Positions 32,648 to 37,839 of a stretch of 39,107 nt of DNA are shown here, in pieces. Made by a program: the position numbers and the translations under genes. The notes beneath the pieces are model-generated. The model was not told where the DNA came from and did not search any database. It worked only from the letters and a program-made list of their open reading frames with translations. Position 1 is the stretch's first letter. Each line of letters begins with the position of its first letter. Source of the stretch: an uncultured Verrucomicrobiales bacterium. Its GTDB lineage: Bacteria > Verrucomicrobiota > Verrucomicrobiia > Verrucomicrobiales > Akkermansiaceae. The stretch is from NCBI GenBank assembly GCA_937958875.1, contig CALGMJ010000167.1, positions 1 through 39,107 on the forward strand, given 5' to 3'.

Positions 32648-33133
32648 ATGCAAACTGCTGTCTACGCTGGAAGCTTTGACCCCCTCACCAATGGTCATCT
32701 ATGGATGATTCGGGAGGGCTTGGAACTCTTTGAGCGCCTAGTGGTGGCGATCGGGAGTAATCCTTCTAAAAACTACACCTTTTCCATCGAAGAACGCCTC
32801 GAACTTCTCCGGGAGTCCATCCCTTCTTGCGAGCGATTAACCATTACCCATTTTGATAACCGATATCTCGTTGATTATGCCAAGGAGATGAATGCAGACT
32901 TTATCCTGCGCGGCATCCGCTCACCCCAAGATTATGAATATGAGCGTGTCATGCGACATATCAATGGCGATATGGCACCTGAAATTCAGACCGTTTTCCT
33001 CATGCCTCCGCGCGATATCGCAGAACTTTCCTCAAGTATGATCAAAGGGCTCATTGGACCAGAAGGCTGGCAAAAAACTGTCCGCCGCTACGTCCCTCAG
33101 GCTGTCTTTTCAAAACTCGAAACCGTCAGCTAA
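32648..33133 (+). CDS. coaD: Phosphopantetheine adenylyltransferase
   Basis: A 161-residue enzyme converting 4'-phosphopantetheine to dephospho-CoA. It begins [14 protein letters not shown], with the nucleotidyl-transfer motif TNGH at 14-17. It contains [14 protein letters not shown] and ends with the SSSMIKGL block that binds ATP. The length is typical of bacterial CoaD. It lies 68 bases after the regulator gene and 10 bases before cstA. Confidence 0.97.
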
Positions 33134-33143
33134 CAAAAACACC

Positions 33144-34952
33144 ATGGCTACCCTAGGCATCGCTCTCGCATCATTGGTGCTCTACTTCGTAGCTTACCAT
33201 ACTTATGGAAAGTGGCTGGGAGCAAAACTCTTTCGGCTCGACCCAAAAGCGAAAGTCCCCTCCATCGAACTCGAAGACGGAAAGGACTACGTCCCCAGTG
33301 ATAAGAAGGTTATCTTTGGGCACCACTTTACCTCCATTGCTGGCACAGGCCCCATCGTTGGCCCAGCCCTAGCCGTCATCTGGGGATGGGTTCCAGCTCT
33401 CCTATGGGTGCTTTTTGGATCAATTCTGATCGGCGCCGTTCATGACTTTGGATCGCTTGTTGTCTCCTTACGAAACAAAGGCCAAACCGTAGGTGACATC
33501 GCTGGCCGCGTCATCACAAAGCGCACTCGCCTCCTCTTCCTCTCCCTCCTCTTTCTCGCCCTAACCATCGTCTTGGCGATCTTCGGCTTAGTCATCGCAG
33601 CGGTCTTTCGCATGTATCCGCAGTCGATCTTTCCCTGCCTCGTTCAGATCCCTCTCGCCCTCGGAATTGGTATCTGGATTCATCGAAAAGGCATCAACCT
33701 GCTCCTTCCTTCCATCATTGCCCTCTTGGTGATGTTGGCCTCGATCGCTCTCGATCTCCGCTCCATTGAAACCTTCAATGCGACCTTAGCACAGTGGAGT
33801 CACCTCCAGTGGTCTGCAGTCCTCTTGGGTTATTGTTTCTTTGCCTCAGTGCTCCCAGTCTGGACCCTGCTTCAACCTCGAGATTATATTAACGCCCTTC
33901 AACTCATCGCGACTTTAGGACTTGTCGTACTTGGCTTAATCGTAGCCTCATTTATCGGTAGCGACGGGAGAGAGCTCAAGATTGTCGCTCCCGCTTTCCG
34001 CTGGAATCCAGAAGGAGCCCCCCTCATCTTCCCCTTCCTCTTCATCACCATCGCCTGTGGCGCGATCTCTGGCTTTCACTGCCTCGTCTCTTCTGGGACT
34101 TCTTCCAAACAGCTGAAATGTGAAACCGACGCCACCTTCATCGGCTTCGGTTCTATGCTTACGGAAGGCTTTTTAGCCGTCCTCGTCATCCTCGCCTGCG
34201 TTGCCGGTCTTGGCCTCGGTGTGCAAGCAGGTGATGGCATGCTCTTTGGAGAACAGGCTTACCAAGCCCGCTATGAAAGCTGGAATTCAGCCCAAGGGCT
34301 AGGAGCAAAAGTAGGAGCCTTTGTCGAAGGCAGCGCAAACTTTCTCAAAGCACTGGGATTACCTGCTAGCTTTGCCATCGCTATTATGGGGGTCTTTGTA
34401 GCCTCATTCGCAGCGACCACTCTGGACACTGCCTGTCGATTACAGCGCTATGTTGTCCAGGAACTGGCAGCCACACTCTCTCCTGCCGACCCTAAAAAAT
34501 GGAATCCTTTCCGTTGGCTTACAAACCGATATGGAGCCACTCTTTTTGCCATCGTCGTGGCCTTTCTCATCGCCCGACTCCCAGGAGCAGACGGAGTCCC
34601 GGGAAAAGGAGGCACCCTTCTCTGGCCTCTCTTCGGAGCAATCAATCAACTCCTCGCAGGACTCGCCTTTCTCGTCATAACGTTTTGGCTAAGACGCCGC
34701 CGCCTATCCCGACTCATCACCATCATCCCCGGAGCGCTCATGCTCCTCCTCCCCGCCATTGCCATGGCCATGAATCTACGAAACTTCGCCCAAGATAGCC
34801 AATGGCTCCTCTTCGGAATTGGTTTTGCCACCATCCTTCTCGAAATCTGGATGATTCTAGAAGCAGCCTCAGTCTGGAAAAGTGTCAAAGGCGTCCTTGA
34901 AGAAGAACCTTCGGATATTTCTACTCAGTCGGAAGCCGGTCGCTCCTGTTGA
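33144..34952 (+). CDS. cstA: Carbon starvation protein CstA family transporter
   Basis: About 602 residues from ATG 33144. An in-frame ATG at 33054 would lie within coaD and add a hydrophilic leader, so it was rejected. The protein is a polytopic membrane carrier with about sixteen hydrophobic segments. The family signature GHHFTSIAGTGPIVGPA is near residues 55-72, and PVWTLLQPRDYIN, FHCLVSSGTSSKQL and ATTLDTACRLQRY are further conserved blocks. CstA proteins take up pyruvate or peptides under carbon limitation. It is followed by a peptide transporter of the POT family, so the pair may serve peptide/carboxylate uptake. Confidence 0.95.
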   Translation: MATLGIALASLVLYFVAYHTYGKWLGAKLFRLDPKAKVPSIELEDGKDYVPSDKKVIFGHHFTSIAGTGPIVGPALAVIWGWVPALLWVLFGSILIGAVHDFGSLVVSLRNKGQTVGDIAGRVITKRTRLLFLSLLFLALTIVLAIFGLVIAAVFRMYPQSIFPCLVQIPLALGIGIWIHRKGINLLLPSIIALLVMLASIALDLRSIETFNATLAQWSHLQWSAVLLGYCFFASVLPVWTLLQPRDYINALQLIATLGLVVLGLIVASFIGSDGRELKIVAPAFRWNPEGAPLIFPFLFITIACGAISGFHCLVSSGTSSKQLKCETDATFIGFGSMLTEGFLAVLVILACVAGLGLGVQAGDGMLFGEQAYQARYESWNSAQGLGAKVGAFVEGSANFLKALGLPASFAIAIMGVFVASFAATTLDTACRLQRYVVQELAATLSPADPKKWNPFRWLTNRYGATLFAIVVAFLIARLPGADGVPGKGGTLLWPLFGAINQLLAGLAFLVITFWLRRRRLSRLITIIPGALMLLLPAIAMAMNLRNFAQDSQWLLFGIGFATILLEIWMILEAASVWKSVKGVLEEEPSDISTQSEAGRSC

Positions 34953-35135: not shown

Positions 35136-37013
35136 GTGCGCTCAAATGACAAGATCTTGAGCACAGAATATCGATCCACACCCACCGACACCGCGGGAAT
35201 GCCAAAAGGCATTCCCTACATTATCTGCAACGAGATTGCTGAACGCTTCAGCTTCTACGGCATGAAGGCCGTTCTCACGATCTTCATGGCTCAGTATCTC
35301 TGGCTCATGGGCGACGTGCCGATGGAACAGATGTCTGAAGTCGAAGCGAGCGCGAATTATCACAAATTCAATAAATGGGTCTATCTGACGCCCTTCATTG
35401 GAGCCCTTCTCGCAGATATTATTTTTGGAAAATATAAGGTCATTATCTGGCTTAGCTTGGTCTATTGCATGGGCCATGCCTGTCTTGCCTTTATGGGAGT
35501 CACCGGATCTGCTGGTTGGTGGCTTTTTGCTGGACTTGCCCTGATTTGTCTCGGGTCAGGCGGGATCAAACCATGTGTCTCAGCGCATGTCGGTGATCAA
35601 TTTGGACCTAAAAATCAAGACCTACTCACTAAGGTGTTTAACTGGTTTTACTTTGGCATCAACCTTGGCTCCTTCGTTTCAACTCTCCTCACTCCATGGC
35701 TCTTAGAGTGGTATGGACCTCACTGGGCTTTCGGCGTCCCTGGTGGCCTGATGGCACTAGCCACGATCTTTTTCTGGATGGGTCGGAATAAGTTCATTCA
35801 TATCCCACCAGGTAAAAACGACTTTGCTGAAGAGCTTTTCAGTAAGGACGGCATGATGGCCATCGCTCGACTTCTCCCACTGTATCTCTTCGTGGCATTT
35901 TTCTGGGCTCTCTTTGACCAAACTGGATCTTCATGGATTTTTCAGTCACAAGATATGAATCGCCAGTTCTTAGGAAGAGAATGGCTCCCCTCTCAGATTC
36001 AGGCTATCAATCCCATTTTAATCCTGATCCTCGTCCCAATTTTCTCTCTCTTCATTTACCCGCAGATTGGCAAGCTGGTTCGACTCACCCCTCTTCGAAA
36101 AATCGGAGCAGGCTTATTTCTTACCGTGGTGTCATTTGCCATGATTGCAATGATCCAGCTTTCCATTTCAGCTGGTAGCACTCCCAACATCGGGTGGCAG
36201 CTTCTAGCCTATCTCGTTATCACCGCAGCCGAGGTTCTCGTCTCGATTGTCTGCCTAGAGTATTCTTACACCCAAGCCCCGAAGAATTTAAAATCCTTCA
36301 TCATGGCTGTCTTCTTCCTCTCCGTCTCTTTCGGAAACCAGATCACGGAATCGGTGAACAACTTCATTCAAATTGAAGACCCTACCGTAAAGTTCTTATC
36401 TGATAAAAAAGAAGGCCTACACCGTCATCCCGGTTTTGATCAAAAAGCTGATACTACGGATGACATTATCTTCACTCTCGAGGAAGGAAAAGTCACTGAA
36501 ACAGTCTTACCAGCGCAAAGCTCACTTGATGAAGCGGTGAAAATCCTAACCCAATGGGCTCAAAACAATGGAAACACCCTTCCCACGACTGAAGAGGCCA
36601 GCTCGATGATTACGGCCCTCAAAGATCCTTGGGGACAGCCTCTCCAATATACGCGCCTCGCGAGTAAAACCTCACGCCTCACAAGTATCGGTCCGGATAA
36701 AGAAGCGGAGACACCATGGGATCAAGGGTATATCTTGACGATCGCCGCACCCGAAACTCCGACTGAGAAAAAGCCCACCAAGAAAACCTGGCTCGAAAAG
36801 CGCAAAGCTGAGCTAGGAATCAAAGATGAAGCGAGCAAAAGCAGTGAACTAATTTCGACAAAAGTCTTCACTGGAGGTCAGGCAAAGCTGGAAGGTCCAG
36901 CCTACTACTGGTTCTTCACAGGTCTCATGCTAGCAGCTGCTATTATCTTTATTCCTTACGCGATTTTCAGTAAGGAAAAGTCCCATATGCAGACTCAGGA
37001 ATCAACTGACTAA
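35136..37013 (+). CDS. POT family peptide:proton symporter with a pseudopilin-like extracytoplasmic insertion
   Basis: A 625-residue MFS protein. The POT signature ExxERFxxYG is at 32-42 (NEIAERFSFYG), followed by about eleven helices. Between the helix near 388-408 and the last helix at 589-612 is an insertion of ~175 hydrophilic residues. This stretch contains NGNTLPTTEE and DPWG at 497-500, then SIGPDKEAETPWD. That order matches the C-terminal domain of type II secretion pseudopilins (GspG: helix, DPWG, then a calcium-loop 'GaDg' motif). Start choice is uncertain: GTG 35136 was used, with ATG 35199 and TTG 35157 as alternatives. The transporter probably imports di- and tripeptides. Confidence 0.88.
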   Translation: MRSNDKILSTEYRSTPTDTAGMPKGIPYIICNEIAERFSFYGMKAVLTIFMAQYLWLMGDVPMEQMSEVEASANYHKFNKWVYLTPFIGALLADIIFGKYKVIIWLSLVYCMGHACLAFMGVTGSAGWWLFAGLALICLGSGGIKPCVSAHVGDQFGPKNQDLLTKVFNWFYFGINLGSFVSTLLTPWLLEWYGPHWAFGVPGGLMALATIFFWMGRNKFIHIPPGKNDFAEELFSKDGMMAIARLLPLYLFVAFFWALFDQTGSSWIFQSQDMNRQFLGREWLPSQIQAINPILILILVPIFSLFIYPQIGKLVRLTPLRKIGAGLFLTVVSFAMIAMIQLSISAGSTPNIGWQLLAYLVITAAEVLVSIVCLEYSYTQAPKNLKSFIMAVFFLSVSFGNQITESVNNFIQIEDPTVKFLSDKKEGLHRHPGFDQKADTTDDIIFTLEEGKVTETVLPAQSSLDEAVKILTQWAQNNGNTLPTTEEASSMITALKDPWGQPLQYTRLASKTSRLTSIGPDKEAETPWDQGYILTIAAPETPTEKKPTKKTWLEKRKAELGIKDEASKSSELISTKVFTGGQAKLEGPAYYWFFTGLMLAAAIIFIPYAIFSKEKSHMQTQESTD

Positions 37014-37182: not shown

Positions 37183-37839
37183 ATGCGAATTCTTACAAGT
37201 CTCTGTGGCCTGCTCATATTTGCGGGGGGATTGCCAGCTGCTATCATCATTGACAACTTCAATACTGGTAGTCTTGATTTTAGCTCCTCTGATGTGATTT
37301 CACAACAAGGGCTGGATGCCAATTCGGTATTAAGTGCTAATCGCACGGTGAGCGGAAGAGCATTAGGCTCCGCATCAATGGATGTGCGAGTCAATACAAC
37401 TGAAAGTACTTTTTCCTTCTCGAGCAGCAATTTTGGCTATTTTGCGATTACGTATTCCTTCAACTTGGAGAACCAAGTTGACCTTCTCGCGAACGGTGAC
37501 ACTTCCTTCCTTTTGAACTTTGCCTATGTAGATCCTGGGTTTTGGCGTGGACGATACGGGTTCACCGTCGATGGCGTTCGTTATAGTCTTGCGAGAGAGC
37601 TATTCGAATTGAACGGGTCTGGAACGATTGAGGTTCCATTTTCGGCGTTCACGAGTGCAGCATCTTTCACTCCAACTGAGATTATCTTTTCCGCAGATCG
37701 AGTTGAGCCAAACTTGCGACTCGAGCTTTCATCGATCACGACTATCCCAGAGCCTCGGCTGCCTGTCCTTCTTGTAATTGGTGCAGTTTGTACCGCAATA
37801 AATTGCAGAACAAGACGTCGATCTCATGAGAACACCTGA
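37183..37839 (+). CDS. PEP-CTERM sorting-domain protein
   Basis: A 218-residue secreted protein. The signal peptide is MRILTSLCGLLIFAGGLPAA. The middle is rich in Ser, Thr, Asn and Phe with a beta pattern. The C-terminus has IPEP (188-191), a hydrophobic helix (LPVLLVIGAVCTAI) and the basic end CRTRRR: the PEP-CTERM signal cut by exosortase. The exosortase gene is not in the window. Codon choice (more G/T-ending) differs from the preceding housekeeping genes, suggesting transfer. Its end overlaps the start of the next broken frame by 14 bases. The molecular role is unknown. Confidence 0.85.
   Translation: MRILTSLCGLLIFAGGLPAAIIIDNFNTGSLDFSSSDVISQQGLDANSVLSANRTVSGRALGSASMDVRVNTTESTFSFSSSNFGYFAITYSFNLENQVDLLANGDTSFLLNFAYVDPGFWRGRYGFTVDGVRYSLARELFELNGSGTIEVPFSAFTSAASFTPTEIIFSADRVEPNLRLELSSITTIPEPRLPVLLVIGAVCTAINCRTRRRSHENT

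Follow-up and report, generated by a model that had tools for sequence, protein, structure and literature searches.

A predicted GspG-type pseudopilin domain between the last two helices of a Verrucomicrobiales POT peptide transporter

The window analysed here, a 39,107-nucleotide stretch of DNA from an uncultured Verrucomicrobiales bacterium, carries on its (+) strand a 625-residue open reading frame with a GTG start. The PF00854 (POT/PTR2) profile scored this frame at 269 bits against a curated cut-off of 27, and its best solved relatives are PepTSo, PepT2 and PepT1. An alternative in-frame ATG at 35199 would give a protein of 604 residues, in agreement with the starts of some relatives. A full-length AlphaFold2 model, built from 65 sequences (the window's own and orthologues from named public genomes), had a mean pLDDT of 87.9 and 12 transmembrane (TM) helices, with TM11 at residues 383-411 and TM12 at 587-611. 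The core of this model aligned with PepT2 over 411 residues (Z 44.1, 2.0 Å), and the motif ExxERFSFYG (33-42), K145 and E375 were invariant in all 65 orthologues. The 12 modelled helices, the Z of 44 to PepT2 and the invariant ExxERFSFYG are those expected of the MFS fold, and from its sequence we assign the protein as a proton-coupled oligopeptide transporter, apparently an intact importer. The features of the gene and of the insertion that it contains are as follows.

35136..37013 (+), POT/PTR2 peptide transporter ORF, 625 aa, GTG start (PTR2 6.3e-80)
35211..36368 (+), TM1-TM11, transporter core, residues 26-411 (AlphaFold2 helices; invariant columns in 65 orthologues)
36369..36893 (+), insertion of ~175 residues (412-586) between TM11 and TM12, predicted periplasmic (comparison with relatives that lack it; folded in the model)
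36414..36506 (+), N-terminal beta hairpin, strands 427-431, 444-449 and 452-457, around HPGFDQKADTTDD (AlphaFold2)
36426-36464 (+), first calcium-loop-like motif HPGFDQKADTTDD, residues 431-443 (conserved Asp; hhalign)
36516..36746 (+), GspG-type globular domain: helix 461-477, helix 485-492, strands 504-507, 512-517 and 530-536 (hhalign, AlphaFold2, VIA-align)
36579..36596 (+), LPTTEE (482-487), counterpart of GspG PTTEQG (hhalign alignment)
36624..36635 (+), DPWG (497-500), counterpart of GspG DPWG (Pfam, PDB profile, hhalign; D497 98%, W499 96%)
36684..36722 (+), SIGPDKEAETPWD (517-529), counterpart of the GspG calcium loop (alignment; Trp528 at the first Asp of GspG DD)
36789..36812 (+), conserved helix WLEKRKAE (552-559) after a flexible linker, Trp552 invariant (orthologue columns, AlphaFold2)
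36852..36893 (+), strand 573-579 and conserved GGQ..LEG segment leading into TM12 (mean identity, AlphaFold2)
36894..36968 (+), TM12, residues 587-611 (AlphaFold2)

Relatives that lack the insertion have 1-17 residues at the same place, mostly 1-6, whereas the insertion ranges from 118 to 188 residues among the members that carry it. If, as in other POTs, the N-terminus faces the cytoplasm, the insertion lies in the periplasm. A first-pass annotation, made from the letters of the window, had described an insertion of ~175 residues between the last two POT helices (36372-36900), had stated that ordinary POT proteins have no such loop, and had read within it a helix, LPTTEE, DPWG and SIGPDKEAETPWD in the order found in GspG. 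Our boundaries differ from these by a few bases, and the four elements stand in the order given, at 461-477, 482-487, 497-500 and 517-529. A further GspG-like calcium-loop motif, HPGFDQKADTTDD, sits just N-terminal of the domain and had been overlooked.

The two loop motifs differ in how closely they follow GspG. The loop at 431-443 has the full G-x-D-x4-T-x-D-D pattern, and D435, D442 and D443 are conserved in 96-97% of 91 insertions. When the part of the insertion profile containing this loop was aligned by hhalign to the C-terminal loop of GspG, the match probability was 83.6% and the best of 60 shuffles reached 1.6%; the loop may have arisen by partial duplication of the C-terminal part of a pseudopilin, or may be a calcium loop reached by convergence. 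In the loop at 517-529, D521 and D529 are kept in 97% of insertions, but 98% have Trp528 in place of the first aspartate of the DD pair. From these sequences we infer calcium or other metal binding by the two predicted loops, although binding at the second is doubtful because Trp528 disrupts the aspartate pair of GspG. Other residues conserved across the 91 insertions are G433, G500, R514, S517, G519, W552, G580 and G581. Mean identity is 0.56 in the GGQ..LEG segment next to TM12 versus 0.36 for the whole insertion. One sub-clade (L028-L032 and L047) has a shorter insertion of 118-122 residues without the N-terminal hairpin motif; it retains the canonical GspG-like DD and offers a useful minimal version of the domain.

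The first-pass annotation had proposed a pseudopilin domain of GspG type, and had named two outcomes that would speak against this, namely the lack of a pseudopilin match in profile searches and a disordered loop. We found pseudopilins in each kind of profile search. A profile of the 91 insertion sequences aligned by hhalign to 24 verrucomicrobial GspG proteins with 97.7% probability over 70 columns, the helix, PTTE, DPWG and S-x-GPD loop being collinear, while the best of 40 column-shuffled profiles gave 1.3% and the reversed profile 0.2%. The Pfam family T2SSG (PF08334) was matched singly at E<=0.1 by 37 of 65 orthologues (best 2.8e-6), and any other Pfam family by at most 2 of the 65 orthologous insertions. 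T2SSG was the sole, weak match of the window's insertion alone (17.1-17.3 bits against a cut-off of 21, E 0.005), and POT frames in other genomes exceeded the cut-off with 27.2, 23.5 and 21.5 bits; automatic Pfam annotation probably shows PTR2 and T2SSG together in some orthologues. Searched against the PDB, the insertion profile matched GspG chains only (best E 0.017), and a sequence search of the PDB with the single insertion returned chance matches only (nitroreductase and Cas7-11, E 0.56-0.73). Across 384 genomes of the phylum, the strongest non-POT matches that we inspected were pseudopilins of GspG type and anchored proteins that share the block. The closest free-standing relatives were small pseudopilins with an FTLME signal (E 5.9e-11 and 9.8e-11).

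The insertion is also folded in the full-length model, with pLDDT of 84-95 over most of its length, and predicted alone (pLDDT 77) it formed the same elements. Its order of helix, helix and three strands gives the helix on an antiparallel meander that characterises the pilin fold. By Foldseek alone the domain model had no significant match, the best being the pilin PilE at E 0.91. When the Foldseek candidates were re-aligned with VIA-align, ranks 1-17 were all pilins or pseudopilins and the first unrelated row had Z 4.6. The top four, EHEC GspG, Vibrio cholerae EpsG, PulG and Vibrio vulnificus GspG, had Z 7.4-7.1 and 20-24% identity over ~85 residues; a Z near 7 is not strong alone, and its weight comes from the run of pilins together with the sequence evidence. 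With regard to Ig domains of the PepT1/PepT2 type, the best re-aligned structures were pilins among the candidates that were listed, which are not an exhaustive set. Taken as a whole, these data make it very probable that the insertion is a folded, pseudopilin-derived domain.

Compared with GspG, the insertion shares the helix, PTTE, DPWG, the three-stranded meander and the S-x-G-P-D...T-x-x-D loop, but the loop from PTTE to DPWG is shorter, Trp stands for the first Asp of the DD pair, and there are an additional N-terminal hairpin with its calcium-loop-like motif and an additional C-terminal helix and strand. The prepilin signal (GFTLxE), and with it the prepilin peptidase site, and the hydrophobic alpha1-N are absent from the insertion, in which the domain is internal, preceded by TM11 and the beta hairpin, and held between two TM helices. 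The genuine GspG of the window's own genome carries the prepilin signal. The insertion is thus derived from the globular domain of GspG, yet, lacking both the prepilin signal and the helix, it does not count as a pseudopilin.

A scan of genomes yielded 296 relatives. The best 80 of these 296 are all from Verrucomicrobiota, most carrying the name Verrucomicrobiales or that of a genus or family within the order, and they include the cultured Roseibacillus persicicus, Rubritalea profundi, Rubritalea marina and Persicirhabdus sediminis. In a set of 281 genomes, comprising those of the order Verrucomicrobiales at 90% completeness or more plus the window's own, we counted the insertion at E<1e-20 in 148 by our own count of rows. 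Carriers in this set belong to families f1, f2 and f6 only; none was found in families f3 and f4, nor in genus g3 of the same family. In a phylogeny of the core, from which the insertion columns were left out, presence of the insertion changed a single time (SH-aLRT 90), compared with a mean of 14 changes when shuffled; this was a quick tree with some long branches. A single origin is therefore favoured, and the possible lineage feature suggested in the first-pass annotation becomes one gain on the POT tree, within one order. The dN/dS of the insertion was 0.06-0.30 in all pairs with estimable dS but one divergent pair (0.5), and that of the core was 0.01-0.10 (0.27 for the divergent pair). 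The insertion is under purifying selection that is looser than that on the core, and at the protein level it evolves ~3x faster. In Rubritalea profundi (L134:5740-6831) the transporter frame is open over its second half only, reflecting a frameshift or an assembly error.

The GspG-type block occurs in several settings in the phylum: besides true pseudopilins and the POT transporters, it is present in a lipoprotein and in single-TM proteins that have no prepilin signal. The window's own genome has three single-TM proteins of this kind without a prepilin signal (L093, L230 and L231). Together with L228, L229, L237 and L240 these form a family of ~160-260 aa (L093:836-1363 is on contig C87 of the window's own genome) that ends in DRWGTPYxFHxLSxxxxEIRSAGPDKxLxTxDDL, has no prepilin signal and is widespread in Verrucomicrobiota. 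L239, a frame of 330 residues on the (−) strand, is a lipoprotein with a signal ending LAGCGGG and a GspG-like globular body; it is without the pilin helix and adjoins a genuine pseudopilin gene. The anchored proteins (L093, L228-L231, L237 and L239) share with the POT insertion the DxWGxP...SAGPDK..T.DD block and the lack of a prepilin signal, but unlike it they are free-standing, ~130-260 aa long and not transporters. Among uses of the globular pseudopilin fold outside filaments, the POT insertion is one example. Other long T2SSG-matching frames in the phylum were considered as further fusions, and the inspected cases were mostly GC-rich read-through upstream of ordinary pseudopilins or anchored proteins rather than new fusions to transporters.

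Clustering of the genes neighbouring ~80 POT loci was spoiled by shadow frames in GC-rich genomes, and we saw no conserved neighbour gene among these loci or in six that were inspected by eye. Those six contained no T2SS gene and no obvious peptidase gene near the POT gene; a TatD-like gene lay just downstream in three and a HAD-type phosphatase upstream in three. The insertion had no match in plasmids. GspG scored above cut-off in 38 of 40 insertion-bearing genomes tested and secretins were found in all 40; families f3 and f4, which lack the insertion, have GspG as well. In two fairly complete but fragmented genomes the insertion was present and GspG was not found.

Large outward domains have precedent in mammalian members of the family. 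In PepT1 and PepT2 (SLC15A1/A2), the segment between TM9 and TM10 forms an extracellular domain of two Ig-like units that binds trypsin and whose removal does not appreciably reduce transport (PMC4597091). Like PepT1 and PepT2, the POT described here has a large folded domain in an outward loop, but it lies between TM11 and TM12 rather than TM9 and TM10 and is predicted to be of pseudopilin rather than Ig-like type. The different loop and the different predicted fold indicate that the two arose independently and are analogous, not homologous. PepTSo, PepTSt and DtpA-D have the same transporter fold and signature motifs as this protein but no large TM11-TM12 domain, and the extra helices HA/HB found in a subset of prokaryotic POTs (PMC4597091) are missing here. 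A large extracellular domain has been stated for mammalian POTs only, as a difference between mammalian and bacterial transporters (PMC4597091); despite this, a whole clade of bacterial POTs has an outer domain. In the open-licence literature we found no described periplasmic domain in bacterial POTs, and with respect to that literature the combination of a POT with a pseudopilin-type domain is unreported. It provides a second, independent system for asking what an outer domain does for a peptide transporter, and an instance in which an unrelated membrane protein has taken up the globular pseudopilin fold. Cultured hosts (Rubritalea, Roseibacillus and Persicirhabdus) are available for tests.

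We propose that in an ancestor within Verrucomicrobiales the TM11-TM12 loop of a POT was replaced once by a GspG-type globular domain with an added beta hairpin. Anchored by its two ends to the periplasmic side of the importer and outside any filament, this would form a metal-stabilised accessory domain. Its most likely activity would be to dock a partner from the periplasm, for instance a peptidase or an envelope structure, close to the site of peptide entry. Normal processing and packing into a pseudopilus would be impossible because there is neither a prepilin signal nor a hydrophobic helix, and we infer that the domain therefore serves the transporter locally. We consider this explanation as a whole, a pseudopilin-derived, metal-stabilised docking domain, to be reasonably probable, and docking as the role of the domain to be a tentative assignment, short of an even chance; the sequence speaks neither for nor against the substrate-capture or partner-binding role that had been suggested at first pass. 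Weighing against the explanation are the lack of a conserved neighbour gene and of linkage to peptidase or T2SS genes in the loci inspected, the faster protein evolution of the insertion, the non-significant Foldseek E-values and Trp528 in the second loop. A more specific version, which we consider doubtful, would make the domain an independently evolved bacterial counterpart of the PepT1/PepT2 extracellular domain: a pseudopilin removed from filaments and fixed on an importer, with its two calcium-loop motifs governing the attachment of a protease or another periplasmic partner, which would thereby feed peptides to the transporter. The main rival to docking is a purely structural or gate-modulating role: the domain would keep the transporter stable or correctly oriented, or tune its gate on the periplasmic side, with calcium as a structural ion and no partner. 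This would suit the placement of the most conserved part of the insertion (identity 0.56) against TM12, the invariant Trp552 and Gly580-581 at the transporter-proximal end, and the stabilisation of GspG pseudopilins by calcium (Korotkov et al. 2009, as cited in PMC5131608 and PMC6692295). Within the order there are POTs that do without the insertion, however, and it is far more variable than the TM core, so that a mainly structural role is possible but on the unlikely side.

Coupling of the importer to the T2SS through contacts of the pilin-pilin type, with the pseudopilus or its platform, would bring import to the places at which secreted proteases liberate peptides. The domain does retain the globular fold of GspG, and GspG and secretins accompany it in nearly all the genomes tested (38/40 and 40/40), but the presence of GspG in f3 and f4 means that there is no specific co-occurrence. 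The two genomes in which GspG was not found, the missing N-terminal hydrophobic helix for filament packing and the lack of T2SS genes nearby in the loci inspected also weigh against such coupling, which we regard as quite unlikely. The insertion could instead be a tolerated relic of the lineage, an accident kept by descent with no selected function, as its single origin, its high variability (118-188 residues) and the lack of linked genes found might suggest. That reading is disfavoured by purifying selection (dN/dS mostly 0.06-0.30) and by retention of the Asp, Trp and Gly residues and of the domain itself across 148 genomes, and is improbable. Finally, the likeness to pseudopilins might reflect chance or convergence of calcium loops in an unrelated or disordered loop, given that the single-sequence scores are marginal (17.3 bits, E 0.005), that GxDxxxxTxDD is a common kind of motif and that Foldseek alone was not significant. 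The collinear match of 70 columns extends beyond the loop to the helix and PTTE and is not reproduced by shuffled or reversed profiles; the model is folded, and pilins head the list of structures re-aligned to it, all of which makes a chance likeness highly improbable.

Some genes adjoining the transporter deserve mention in their own right. A TatD-type DNase gene begins within a few bases 3' of the POT gene, as if in one operon with it, at L114:6793-7593 (PF01026 confirmed), L095:6784-7596 and L104:6797-7594 (the latter two by similarity), and is absent in the window. Directly upstream of the POT gene in the window, on the same strand, 33054-34952 encodes a CstA-family transporter (PF02554, 450 bits). 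As CstA is another peptide/pyruvate transporter family, two such transporters are adjacent here, an order not seen in the relatives inspected. Downstream, 37183-37839 encodes a 218-residue protein that has no Pfam match and carries a secretion signal and a PEP-CTERM-like C-terminus (IPEPRLPVLLVIGAVCTAINCRTRRRS).
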